From Polaribacter marinaquae (GTDB lineage: Bacteria; Bacteroidota; Bacteroidia; Flavobacteriales; Flavobacteriaceae), in NCBI RefSeq assembly GCF_038019025.1, contig NZ_CP150496.1:833501-897500 (forward strand): a stretch of DNA of 64,000 nucleotides, read 5' to 3'. The notes below the pieces were generated by a model, which had not been told where the DNA came from, made no database searches, and saw nothing but the letters and a program-made list of their open reading frames with translations. Position numbers and translations under genes: made by a program. This document shows positions 4,663 through 50,186 of the stretch, one piece after another. Position 1 is the first letter of the stretch, and the number at the start of each line of letters is the position of its first letter.

Positions 4663-4675
4663 AAAAGTTAGTAAA

Positions 4676-4760
4676 TTAGCACGCGTTAAGGATTGAAGTG
4701 GCATCCTTTTTTTGAGGTACGATAAAAAAAGATAGAACGTAAAGCCTGTTAAAACGCCCA
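4676..4760 (+). ncRNA. Conserved flavobacterial RNA-like element, copy A (possibly Flavo-1)
   Basis: This non-coding stretch between argS and lpdA contains the blocks ATTGAAGTGGCATCC, TTTGAGGTACGA, a run of A, and AAAGC. Its ends can pair: GCGTT (4683-4687) with AACGC (4753-4757), plus AAGG with CCT inside. The same block order recurs at 51270-51343 with different but still pairing ends. I recall such elements as common in flavobacterial intergenic regions and like the Rfam Flavo-1 motif. The name and the strand are tentative. Confidence 0.5.
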
Positions 4761-47027: not shown

Positions 47028-47080
47028 GCTAACTTCGATTATAAGTCATTAAAACGACGAGATAATCGTATCAAATTAGC
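47028..47080. other. attC-like imperfect palindrome, left boundary of the RT module
   Basis: Nested arms pair: GCTAA (47028-47032) with TTAGC (47076-47080), CGATTAT (47036-47042) with ATAATCG (47062-47068), and GTC (47045-47047) with GAC (47056-47058). Spacers between outer and inner arms are unequal, 3 bp on the left and 7 bp on the right. The layout parallels the larger palindrome at 50057-50186. The rest of the gap, 46891-47027, shows nothing recognisable. Confidence 0.5.
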
Positions 47081-47098
47081 TGCAACCAAAACCAACCA

Positions 47099-48133
47099 AT
47101 GAACGTAGAATTGAAAAATATTAAAGTTTCATACCAAGAAAAAGCTTGGTCGAGTATTTCGAAAGAAATAACCTTGAGTGAAACTTTAAATATTATAAAT
47201 TCTGAATTATTGAAAGGTAAAATTGAACGATTAAGAAAAGAGCTTGAAAACGGAAATAAAGATTACTACGATAATAATAAAAAATCATTACCTGCTGTAA
47301 CCTTTTCGGCTACATTTCAAGAAAAAAGAAGAAAAGACAAACTAAAAGATTACAATCAAATTCTGGTCATTGATATTGACAAATTATCAATTGAAGAAAT
47401 GAAAATAGTTGGAGACGCTTTGAAAAACGAACCTCTAGTTTTTTCTTTTTGGAAATCTCCTTCAAACAAAGGTTACAAAGGTTTAATAAAATTAAGTTTT
47501 ATCGAAAAATTTGAAAAAATAAATACAGACTTCCAACATAAGTATGCTTTTAATTTAGTTTCAAGTTACTTCTTGGAAAATCACAAAATAGAATTAGATA
47601 AAAGTGGTAGCGATATAACAAGATTATGCTTTCTATCTTATGACCAAAAGATTATTATTAAAGAGAATATTCAAGAGTTCAAAGTTGAAAACTCAAATAT
47701 TCCAATAGAAACTAAAAAAAAGAAAGAAAATAATACAACCTTAAAATTCAGTAGTAATAAAGATGCGTTACACAATTCACTAAACAGAAACGACCCATAT
47801 GACAGACGCTTAATGAGTAATATAATCAGGTATTTAAATAACAAAAATCAGACTATAACTGAAACTTATGAAAGTTGGTGTAAAGTGGCAATGGCAATTG
47901 CCAACACTTTTACATTTGACGTTGGCAGAAACTATTTCGTTAAATTAAGCAAAAGAGATTCTAATAAATTCAACGAAATAAATTGTATAAACTTCCTTAT
48001 AAACTGTTATGAAAACAGAAATGGAGAAGTATCATTTGCTAGCATTGTTTTTCTAGCTAATAACAAAGGGTATAAAACAAAATATCAAAAAGATAATGGA
48101 GTACCGAAGACGGAAGGCGAAAGCCTCGAGTGA
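47099..48133 (+). CDS. VirE_N/BT4734-like primase-type protein with PriCT_2-like C-terminus
   Basis: 344 residues, cytoplasmic. The N-terminal 210 residues match the BT4734/VirE_N family: LPAVTFSATFQEKRR, the acidic pair in LVIDIDKL (D92, D94), SPSNKGYKGLIKLS, and DITRLCFLSYD near 172-182. Residues of about 235-335 look like a primase C-terminal PriCT_2 domain (SWCKVAMAIANTF, VSFASIVFLANNKGY). Such proteins normally carry a helicase domain, which is absent here. Its last codons and stop lie inside the predicted structured RNA that precedes the RT gene. I infer that it works with the RT, perhaps in priming or binding the RNA or cDNA. Confidence 0.72.
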   Translation: MNVELKNIKVSYQEKAWSSISKEITLSETLNIINSELLKGKIERLRKELENGNKDYYDNNKKSLPAVTFSATFQEKRRKDKLKDYNQILVIDIDKLSIEEMKIVGDALKNEPLVFSFWKSPSNKGYKGLIKLSFIEKFEKINTDFQHKYAFNLVSSYFLENHKIELDKSGSDITRLCFLSYDQKIIIKENIQEFKVENSNIPIETKKKKENNTTLKFSSNKDALHNSLNRNDPYDRRLMSNIIRYLNNKNQTITETYESWCKVAMAIANTFTFDVGRNYFVKLSKRDSNKFNEINCINFLINCYENRNGEVSFASIVFLANNKGYKTKYQKDNGVPKTEGESLE

Positions 48134-48245
48134 ATATCACTCTCGTAAACGATAAGGTTTCGTCAGAGAGCTTAAAAGAAACCGATGACTTATATGTCAG
48201 TATCTTTGTCAATATGTGCATTATGCACTTTACAGGTACTCCATT
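48095..48245 (+). ncRNA. Predicted structured RNA between the primase-like and RT genes
   Basis: A perfect 11-bp closing helix joins AATGGAGTACC (48095-48105) to GGTACTCCATT (48235-48245). Inside are five hairpins: AGGC-GAAA-GCCT (48115-48126, GNRA loop), GAGTGA with TCACTC (48128-48142, containing the upstream stop codon), GGTTTC (48156-48161) with GAAACC (48178-48183), TGAC (48186-48189) with GTCA (48196-48199), and GTGCA with TGCAC (48216-48228). The density of exact pairing in AT-rich DNA indicates a functional RNA, such as a template or cofactor RNA for the RT. No promoter box was found for it. Confidence 0.6.
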
Positions 48246-48258
48246 TATTTAAAAACCT

Positions 48259-50061
48259 ATGAAAGAATTTAATCTTTATTTTAATGAAACAGATATAATA
48301 AGACAACTGTGTAAAATCAGAGTAAAAATTGCTAAAAATAGAAACAAGAAACATCTATTACATTTACTTACTTCAGATAAAGATTACAATTATCATATAG
48401 AAAACAACTCAAAAGAGACGAACGAATTTGAAATTTACCAAAAAAGTATAAATGATAAATTAAAAACATTATTACCACCAAGAAGACAATGGGTAAAAAT
48501 AGGTTCAAAATCAAGAGTTAAGGATAAAGAAACAAATGAATTTCTGACTTCAAACGATAAAAATTTTTACGCACTTTTAAAGACAATTCGAAAACACAAA
48601 AAAAACAAATCAAAAGAACAATGGTTTATTAATTTAATGAAATTCGTTTCAGAAATTCAGAAAAAAGCATTGTCTAATTCTTATTCTGTTTCGAATCCTT
48701 TGATATTTCCAAAACTAAAAGAACCTATAAAAAAATCTCATAAAGAGAAAAACGATTGCAGACCAATTAGTATGTTTTCCATTGAAGACAGAGTAATTTT
48801 GAGTTTAACAAATAAATTTTTAACATCAATACTGGATAAATATTTTAAAGATTCTTCTTACGCTTTTCGTTCAAAAAAAATAGACAATAAGACTATATCA
48901 CATCATAATTGTATTAGAGATATAATAAAATACAAAAAAAGTAATCCTGCTTCAGAATTATATGTTATCGAATGTGATATGAAAAAATTCTATGACACAG
49001 TAAATCATAAAATTGCATTTGATATTTTTAAAAAATTAATTGATAAAGTAAATCAAGAATTTCCTGAATTGAATTTGAACCAACCTGTTCATATTTTTAA
49101 AAGTTTCTTAAATTGTTATTCATTTAATAAAAATGTAAAAGAAGCAGATAATCCTGATTATTGGAAATCCTACGAAATACCAAATGGCTCTTTTCCTTGG
49201 GTGGACAAAGACCTTTCTAAATATTATAAGAAAGACCACAACCAAAGAATTGGAGTTCCACAAGGTGGAGCATTATCTGGATTAATTGCAAACATTTACT
49301 TAAACAAAGCTGACATTGCACTTGAAAAACTACCCGTACTTTATTTAAGATTTTGTGATGATATGGTTGTTATACACGATGACAAGGAACAATGTGAAAA
49401 AGCAAAAAATGTTTATTTAGATTGTTTAAGAGAATTAAAACTATTTCCCCACAAATTCAAATCGACAGATGAATTATATACTTGCAAAATAAAAGACAGA
49501 AAAACTGATTACACACCTTTTTGGAATGGTAAATCAAAAGGTCCTTACAAATGGACTAATTCATTTAAAAATGGAGATTTCCCTTGGAAAGCTTTTGTTG
49601 GCTATGAGATAAATTTTAATTGCGAAACTAGAGTAAGAAAAAAATCATTTAACAAAGAAGTTATTAAACAATCGAAAATCGTTAACGAAATACAAAAAGC
49701 AATTGAAAACGAGCAAAGGTGTAAAAAAGGAACAGCAATTGAATCAGCAATAAATAGACTAATCGGAATGTCTGTTGGCAGAATTGGTTTAGATAATTTT
49801 AGTGAAGTTTCTACAGATATGTGTTGGAAAAATGGCTTTCAAGAATTAGAACTAAACAAACATTCAGCAGTCCAGATTAAGGAATTAGATAGAAATAGAA
49901 GTAAATTATATTATGATCTTTTCAAGCAAATAAAGGAATTAGAAGAAGAAAATGATGAAAAAATAGAACGTGGAGAAGATAATAGACAACATAAAAAATA
50001 CGATAAACCATTTAGTTATTATTATCAAATTCTCGAAAGAAAGAAAAATGGCAGCAGCTAA
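48259..50061 (+). CDS. Reverse transcriptase of uncertain class
   Basis: 600 residues. The RT core shows RPISMFSIEDR (from R168), motif A IECDMKKFYD with D240, motif B GVPQGGALSG (332-341), motif C RFCDDM with catalytic D367-D368 (F-C-D-D in place of Y-x-D-D), a motif D-like KLFPHKF, and FVGYEINF near 446-453. All catalytic aspartates are intact. About 160 extra residues precede the core and about 130 helical residues follow it. I see no Cas1, HNH endonuclease or retron VTG motif. The stop codon is part of the core of the downstream attC-like palindrome. It lies 13 bp after the structured RNA. Confidence 0.85.
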   Translation: MKEFNLYFNETDIIRQLCKIRVKIAKNRNKKHLLHLLTSDKDYNYHIENNSKETNEFEIYQKSINDKLKTLLPPRRQWVKIGSKSRVKDKETNEFLTSNDKNFYALLKTIRKHKKNKSKEQWFINLMKFVSEIQKKALSNSYSVSNPLIFPKLKEPIKKSHKEKNDCRPISMFSIEDRVILSLTNKFLTSILDKYFKDSSYAFRSKKIDNKTISHHNCIRDIIKYKKSNPASELYVIECDMKKFYDTVNHKIAFDIFKKLIDKVNQEFPELNLNQPVHIFKSFLNCYSFNKNVKEADNPDYWKSYEIPNGSFPWVDKDLSKYYKKDHNQRIGVPQGGALSGLIANIYLNKADIALEKLPVLYLRFCDDMVVIHDDKEQCEKAKNVYLDCLRELKLFPHKFKSTDELYTCKIKDRKTDYTPFWNGKSKGPYKWTNSFKNGDFPWKAFVGYEINFNCETRVRKKSFNKEVIKQSKIVNEIQKAIENEQRCKKGTAIESAINRLIGMSVGRIGLDNFSEVSTDMCWKNGFQELELNKHSAVQIKELDRNRSKLYYDLFKQIKELEEENDEKIERGEDNRQHKKYDKPFSYYYQILERKKNGSS

Positions 50062-50186
50062 CGCCGTATAAAATTAATTGCTGGTTTTAGCTTATTTACG
50101 AAAGTCCTCGCGGACTTTCTATCTGTGATTTATTTGCTAACTTTAGTGCTTAAAACACGCAACTAATCTTATACAACAACGTTAGC
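50057..50186. other. attC-like imperfect palindrome, right boundary of the RT module
   Basis: The ends GCTAACG (50057-50063) and CGTTAGC (50180-50186) pair. Inside them GTATAA (50066-50071) pairs with TTATAC (50169-50174), with spacers of 2 and 5 bp. The stem continues with mismatches (ATTA and TTGC with TAAT and GCAA), and an 8-bp perfect hairpin GAAAGTCC/GGACTTTC (50100-50107 with 50112-50119) tips the structure. Integron attC sites have this outer-core, spacer, inner-arm, variable-tip organisation. The 130-bp size is at the upper end for attC. No integrase gene is in the window. Confidence 0.55.

Follow-up and report, generated by a model that had tools for sequence, protein, structure and literature searches.

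Recent work has shown that class 2 defence-associated reverse transcriptase (DRT) systems use small RNAs to produce homopolymers, tandem repeats and new genes, and a link to telomerase has been proposed. The UG39 class of reverse transcriptases (RTs) reportedly originates in the UG/Abi survey of Mestre et al. from 2022. In the characterised class 2 relatives, the template RNAs are encoded in cis. According to the DRT10 paper, the A-B-A' pattern of the template loop allows the cDNA to realign, and the DRT3 account describes double-stranded repeat DNA that is produced by two enzymes. Here, we describe a module within a 64,000-nucleotide stretch of the Polaribacter marinaquae chromosome (RefSeq assembly GCF_038019025.1, contig NZ_CP150496.1, positions 833,501 to 897,500 of the forward strand; hereafter the window, whose own numbering is used below). 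It is composed of a UG39-class RT gene, a gene coding for a VirE-PriCT2 protein and a structured RNA, which form a real unit. The RT/partner pair is already catalogued; as far as our searches go, what is new is the RNA with its covariation, the occurrence of divergent and of VirE-less architectures, the candidate motif for priming and the attC-like ends. The myRT publication gives VirE_N neighbours for 45-46% of class UG28b, which is probably the same group as UG39. For UG39 or UG28b, the literature searched, which did not extend to most subscription papers, yielded no account of an associated RNA or of a mechanism, nor of a template, a priming residue, alternative architectures or mobility.

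The two genes and their linkage in homologous loci

The coding features of the module are as follows; AEP stands for archaeo-eukaryotic primase.

47099..48133, plus strand: VirE gene, coding for a BT4734/VirE_N + PriCT-2 protein of 344 aa (PADLOC RTasVirE-PriCT2), AEP (primase-polymerase)-like
47372..47380, plus strand: codons of D92-I-D94, AEP motif I (DxD), invariant in 39 of 39 aligned rows, window included
48259..50061, plus strand: UG39-class RT of 600 aa (RT_UG39 1.1e-201)
49354..49362, plus strand: codons of the catalytic residues C366-D367-D368, invariant in 52 of 52 rows
50014..50019, plus strand: codons of S586-Y587 in the C-terminal tail, present in 52 of 52 rows; candidate protein-priming residues by comparison with DRT9 and DRT10

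Open reading frame (ORF) calling in the window places the two genes on the same strand with a gap of 125 bp, as stated in the preliminary description of this region. Its reading of the first protein as VirE_N/BT4734-like with a PriCT_2 tail and without a helicase agrees with the Pfam matches (BT4734-like_N 1e-24, PriCT_2 2.1e-06), among which, listed up to E 1, neither a helicase nor a SLATT family was present. Similarly, the 600-residue RT with an intact FCDD motif was recovered (Pfam RVT_1 9.9e-20), and D240 is, like the catalytic residues listed above, intact and invariant in all 52 aligned RT rows, window included. What has to be given up is the statement that the module is not assignable to a named system, as both proteins have dedicated PADLOC DRT models, RT_UG39 and RTasVirE-PriCT2. 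The best PADLOC model for the RT is RT_UG39 with 669.5 bits, the next model reaching 90.2 bits and Drt9 83.6 bits, so that the margin over every other PADLOC RT model exceeds 570 bits; the 344-aa protein matches RTasVirE-PriCT2 with 423.5 bits (1.5e-127). By these scores, the RT belongs to UG39. Its partner looks like an AEP primase-polymerase. When the predicted RT structure was searched, DRT9 was the top match and ranked above retrons. The VIA-align lists leave room for families that they do not name. A conserved hydroxyl residue is present in the C-terminal tail, as in the protein priming of DRT9 and DRT10, the invariant Ser-Tyr being what would be expected of a protein primer.

Genome sets were searched with the RT_UG39 model at a cut-off of E<=1e-40, and the homologue set used throughout comprises 31 distinct UG39 loci, genomes found twice being counted once. 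Model-positive genomes made up 5/395 in the phylum, 4/395 in the class, 2/397 in the own family and 10/398 in one genus; the genome of the window is included in the phylum, class and family counts, not in that of the genus. Nearly all of the 31 loci are found in Bacteroidota. The genome scan yielded 18 RT loci and a VirE-type match upstream of every one of them, which was partial at contig ends in L005 and L018 and split over two frames in L009. Over the full set, the VirE gene adjoins the RT gene in 28 of 31 loci, on the same strand in 21 and divergently in seven (L038, L041 and L043-L047). Homologues thus keep the two genes adjacent, as the preliminary description had asked, and the linkage survives an orientation flip; the refuting condition of that description, an RT inside a class without the VirE gene, was likewise not borne out. 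In the remaining three loci (L039, L040 and L042), no VirE gene was detected, defined as no tblastn match to the window VirE at E 1e-3, a threshold that a very diverged copy could escape. AAA_15-type ATPase genes lie upstream of the RT gene in L040 (PADLOC Old 4.1e-63) and L042 (AriA 1.3e-41, Old 1.7e-39), and in L040 a gene without a PADLOC match follows the RT gene. RT_UG39 was the best model for all five scanned RTs from divergent or VirE-less loci.

Several loci differ from this pattern in other ways. A distant UG39 locus with a same-strand VirE gene is located on the Thiospirochaeta plasmid pSpe (L036:6001-7760), where the RT is annotated as two ORFs; it is the sole relative seen beyond Bacteroidota and Ignavibacteria. 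The RT at L039:9899-13440 ends early compared with the UG39 profile, and the two genes after it, for a Metallophos protein and an AAA_15/AAA_27 ATPase, are laid out like an SbcD/SbcC pair. In L038, the divergent VirE gene overlaps at its end with an AriA/Old-type ATPase gene (L038:11606-13303). No relative was found in viral contigs, searched for close-relative proteins and the exact loop sequence, or in a phage collection.

A conserved RNA directly upstream of the RT gene

48097..48245, plus strand: structured RNA with closing stem P1, three consensus stem-loops and an exposed loop; covariance-model match at 48097-48244 with 128.9 bits (training sequence)
48098..48105, plus strand: 5' strand of P1, GGAGUACC (helix 1 of the covariation analysis)
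48140..48170, plus strand: stem-loop CUCUC...GAGAG (helix 3 of the covariation analysis)
48184..48215, plus strand: exposed loop, candidate template, with UCAGUAUC at 48197-48204, which is invariant in 13 sequences
48216..48228, plus strand: small stem-loop GUGC...GCAC just 3' of the exposed loop (helix 4, 100% of cells paired)
48235..48242, plus strand: 3' strand of P1, GGUACUCC, with a T-rich stretch 3' of it and the RT start 16 nt on

The RNA overlaps the final ~37 nt of the VirE reading frame and is hence longer than the 125-bp gap. The folding energy of positions 48090-48270 is -52.4 kcal/mol (z -5.45), a value that none of 200 shuffles reached, and this fold, together with covariation in 13 relatives, bears out the earlier observation of a highly structured RNA between the genes. 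When the 170 nt preceding the RT gene were folded, z was below -2 in 17 of 31 loci compared with 1 of 31 control stretches within the RT gene; this fixed 170-nt rule truncates the longer RNAs of the divergent loci, where the fold z is weak. An alignment of the RNA from 13 same-strand relatives (174 columns) contains the closing stem and three further stem-loops. Changes on both sides were seen at 11 of 23 base pairs, and 93.2% of the cells are paired compared with 85.4% in shuffles, none of 500 shuffles reaching any of five measures. Sliding the partners by 1-3 columns reduced pairing to 41-56%. In the window sequence, some of the consensus pairs in the second helix are disrupted. A conserved, covarying RNA is located directly 5' of the RT gene, with a stem at its end that is followed by a U-run in most loci. 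The locus encodes a conserved non-coding RNA (ncRNA) in cis, as do class 2 UG/DRT systems with a template ncRNA.

The covariance model built from this alignment, R1, recovered 2 of 18 non-training sources at the expected place, L017 (3.7e-5) and L013 (0.023), both from the same-strand group, and a single RNA model for all loci was rejected on this account. The RNAs of the divergent, the VirE-less and several distant same-strand loci were recognised by the closing stem, and by the box and U-run where present, not by R1. In all seven divergent loci, a TAnnTTTG box, which we take to be the Bacteroidota -7 box, precedes the closing stem by 2-5 nt (1-4% in shuffles), and 7-10 of the 11-12 nt ending or following the stem are T. 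Box and T-run on either side of the stem imply that about 133-206 nt are transcribed from a separate promoter up to a separate terminator. At gathering scores, Rfam gave no match at the RNA in the window and none upstream of the RT in 12 homologous loci. The only Rfam match in the window is a Flavo-1 RNA (RF01705) at 4674-4755 (53.4 bits), and the sole one in the 12 homologous loci is a c4-2 RNA (RF02944) at L033:3383-3460, downstream of a divergent-type UG39 RT.

The exposed loop of the window contains an imperfect direct repeat, UGUCAGUAU / UGUCAAUAU, with a period of 12. A conserved poly-U template as in DRT9 was not found, the longest U run in this loop being 3. In 20 loci out of 31, CAGUA is found no more than 110 nt from the RT start, compared with 3.2 expected from shuffles, though many of these 20 loci are related. 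For a repeat test on all 31 loops, the 3' borders were set by hand from the structures, and related loops are not independent. An A-B-A' repeat had p < 0.05 in five loops, namely L004 (0.003), L040 (0.006), L039 (0.033), L042 (0.047) and L036 (0.048), and p 0.079 in L047. The L004 loop carries three GUAUCA units, and AUUCG-type repeats are present in L040, L042 and L039. A telomerase-like A-B-A' template as a family-wide feature is retained as no more than a possibility, as the repeat is significant in only these five loops and not in the window.

Defence neighbourhood and attC-like ends

For the surroundings of the homologues, 83 ORFs were scanned, picked by hand as the nearest among the 172 that lie up to 5 kb from 25 loci. 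These 83 ORFs matched 91 PADLOC families (E<=1e-20), compared with one among the 34 window ORFs outside the module; PADLOC families overlap, so that the defence proteins are fewer than 91. Among the 25 families shown are type III and IIG restriction, BrxL, DarTG, Old, AriA and others, and Pfam AAA_15 and AAA_21 were each found in 9 of the 83 scanned neighbours. Judged by such context, the module is probably an anti-phage system. The preliminary description had suggested that the three parts form one unit, and this suggestion gains support from VirE-RT adjacency in both orientations, the covarying RNA and the defence-rich neighbours elsewhere.

The 3' end of the module carries a further feature:

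50059..50186, plus strand: attC-like element of ~128 nt directly after the RT stop, with relatives elsewhere in the same genome

This element has 14 other matches in the genome at E<=2e-5, of which 11 lie within 2,555,885-2,585,994, two of these perhaps being opposite ends of a single longer element; at higher search sensitivity, 19 elements, full or partial, were listed from 2,534 to 2,586 kb. The region 2,534,000-2,588,500 of the same chromosome (L056-L059, L061) resembles an integron array and includes type I restriction-modification genes. From ~2,554.6 to 2,585.8 kb, all 29 called ORFs (>=80 aa) are on one strand, and for 8 of the 11 full-length copies there, the distance to the 3' end of one of these ORFs is no more than about 35 nt. 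A 3' GTT is present in 14 of 15 printed copies and the complete integron consensus GTTRRRY in three. About 1.2 kb from the last array copy, a 385-aa tyrosine recombinase is encoded, which scored 217.8 against NF040815 (tyrosine recombinase/integron integrase; cut-off 220) and 212.1 against the integron integrase model TIGR02249 (cut-off 265), below the cut-off in both cases and with a match to the latter that leaves out the central part of TIGR02249. Two more attC-like elements and a partial one were seen at 490,180-492,563 (L060), a long way from the main array.

The 3' flanks of 16 homologues were compared, and the two most clearly attC-like ones were tested for repeats in their own genomes. 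For the L015 flank, its own genome gave 15 further matches at E<=0.1, of which 13 are on one contig and only two below 1e-10; for the L008 flank there were 10, eight of them below 1e-18. When the window element and one array copy were searched by blastn against all homologous loci, matches were obtained in the own genome only, which indicates that each host has its own element sequence. A home-made attC stem score failed to separate sites from shuffles. The call is based on repeated copies within the host genome, and the label stays "attC-like". Since the module has, in each of three hosts, an attC-like end that is repeated in the genome and particular to that host, it probably moves as an integron cassette, of which the window would hold a single copy away from the array; its left edge may lie near 47076, to judge from the likeness to the start of one array cassette. 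A clean empty site in L074 was considered and rejected: a glycosyltransferase there is ~90% identical and VirE is absent, but the flank is too different. By eye, the 3' glycosyltransferase flank of this module-free locus holds a degenerate stretch that resembles part of the attC-like element. The IntegronFinder 2.0 paper reports very few complete integrons in Bacteroidota and one newly found complete integron in Bacteroidetes proper. For systems of this type, the attC-like ends point to a possible means of spreading within the phylum.

Proposed mechanism and comparison with known systems

We consider it most likely, with moderate confidence, that the module is a class 2-like DRT, in which an RNA serves as scaffold and template for protein-primed, repetitive cDNA and an AEP-like partner acts on that DNA. 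Starting from the class, the VirE-RT linkage, the RNA and the conserved residues, which are established, we infer RNA-RT binding, templating, priming, a second strand and a phage trigger. The RNA would be a closed scaffold of several stems, to which the RT binds and which exposes the loop (UCAGUAUC...) as a template. The invariant C-terminal Ser-Tyr could prime DNA synthesis, which would leave the cDNA covalently joined to the RT. At short loop repeats, the cDNA might realign and be copied again, resulting in repetitive DNA. The VirE-PriCT2 primase-polymerase may prime or copy the second strand, or serve as a regulator or effector. The response would be set off by phage infection, and the module probably also travels as a cassette with its attC-like end.

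A number of observations weigh against this proposal. The UG39 assignment is based on hidden Markov model (HMM) scores, and in the structure search the RTs of diversity-generating retroelements (DGRs), group II and G2L4 are less than 1 Z unit from DRT9. As described, DRT2, DRT9 and DRT10 have no primase partner, so the role given to the partner is a guess. With regard to the RNA, 14 of 31 loci fail to reach z < -2, the 13 sequences on which the covarying structure was tested are also those that it came from, which favours the cells-paired measure, and 16 of 18 non-training sources, among them all of the divergent and VirE-less ones, escaped model R1. In the window loop, the exact A-B-A' repeat is not significant (p 0.231), and the p of 0.0165 obtained with one mismatch allowed comes from a post hoc test. 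Copying of tandem repeats by UG39 is suggestive and not established for the family, because p < 0.05 was reached in only 5 of 31 loops and p is > 0.6 in 13. Moreover, the control for the neighbours comes from a single region in a single genome, and the window module is flanked by Asparaginase_2 and glycosyltransferase family 2 genes, not by a defence island.

The RNA might instead be a cis-acting leader of the RT mRNA, with P1 and the U-run as an attenuator or with a promoter in the loop; no DNA would then be templated by it and the RT would resemble class 1 Abi enzymes. P1 and the U-run end a few nt before the RT start and look like an intrinsic terminator, and TAnnTTTG matches are present in loops, as TATCTTTG in nine same-strand loci and the divergent L044 and as TAATTTTG in L014. 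For part of the loci, TATCTTTG in the loop as a promoter is a rival reading, and the presence of TTG at -33 spacing does not discriminate (0/10 loops checked, 1/7 boxes before P1). However, the near relatives L003, L004, L005 and L016 lack TAnnTTTG and still keep UCAGUAUC, the box of the divergent loci precedes P1 and makes the entire structured RNA the transcript, and the template RNAs of characterised class 2 relatives are encoded in cis. We regard a leader as unlikely. It is somewhat easier to envisage, if still doubtful, that RT and RNA are the core and that VirE-PriCT2 is a toxic effector or regulator, like SLATT of DRT10, and not a second-strand polymerase. Three loci have no detectable VirE, and in L040 and L042 an OLD/AriA-type ATPase gene is found upstream; the replaced partner in these two would be exchangeable, as expected of effector slots. 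On the other hand, the partner is retained in 28 of 31 loci, and its invariant AEP DxD points to polymerase or primase chemistry. An RT with an upstream structured RNA is also the layout of retrons, and PADLOC retron RT models weakly match the homologues, so one might speculate that the pair is a retron-like or other non-defence retroelement with hitch-hiking defence genes nearby. The retron RT models score far below UG39 on the homologues, UG39 leads all other models by more than 570 bits and DRT9 stands above retrons in the structure searches. We regard this alternative as very unlikely.

Carried to its end, the class 2-like reading would make UG39 a bacterial immune counterpart of telomerase plus primase: a protein-primed RT would make tandem repeats from a telomerase-like loop, an AEP primase-polymerase would fill in the complementary strand, and the system would spread among Bacteroidota as an integron cassette, its primase being exchangeable for an OLD/AriA-type ATPase. 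We regard this full picture as improbable. If the class 2-like reading holds, UG39 would be a further branch, one that has an RNA of its own and, unlike DRT2, DRT9 and DRT10 as described, a primase-like partner, and would allow us to ask how bacterial repeat DNA turns double-stranded. With the likely borders of the RNA, a template candidate and just one candidate motif for priming (S586-Y587), this uncharacterised class becomes testable.

The module shares the RT family (669.5 bits) and the partner family (423.5 bits) of PADLOC RT_UG39 + RTasVirE-PriCT2. DRT9 (UG28) is set apart by an RT HMM score of only 83.6 bits and by its poly-U template, whereas the window loop is without a poly-U tract and the partner is AEP-like. 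Compared with CRISPR-associated primase-polymerases (CAPP), the 344-aa protein reaches 62.5 bits with the PrimPol type B model (NF040562), below the cut-off of 200, and has a UG39 RT as its partner. DRT10 (UG17) and UG39 have in common a three-part layout of RNA, accessory gene and RT, an RNA of ~140 nt with a closing stem and small stem-loops and, in the loops of some UG39 loci but not significantly in the window, an A-B-A' tandem repeat. They differ in that the DRT10 accessory protein is SLATT and that of UG39 VirE-PriCT2, in that the DRT10 RNA lies upstream of the accessory gene whereas the window RNA adjoins the RT gene between both genes, and in loop conservation, which the DRT10 paper gives as poor for its template loop and which is strong in the UG39 subgroup of the window. 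With DRT3, UG39 shares the combination of two polymerase-type proteins with one RNA; the second enzyme of DRT3 is another RT, whereas the second protein of UG39 is primase-like.

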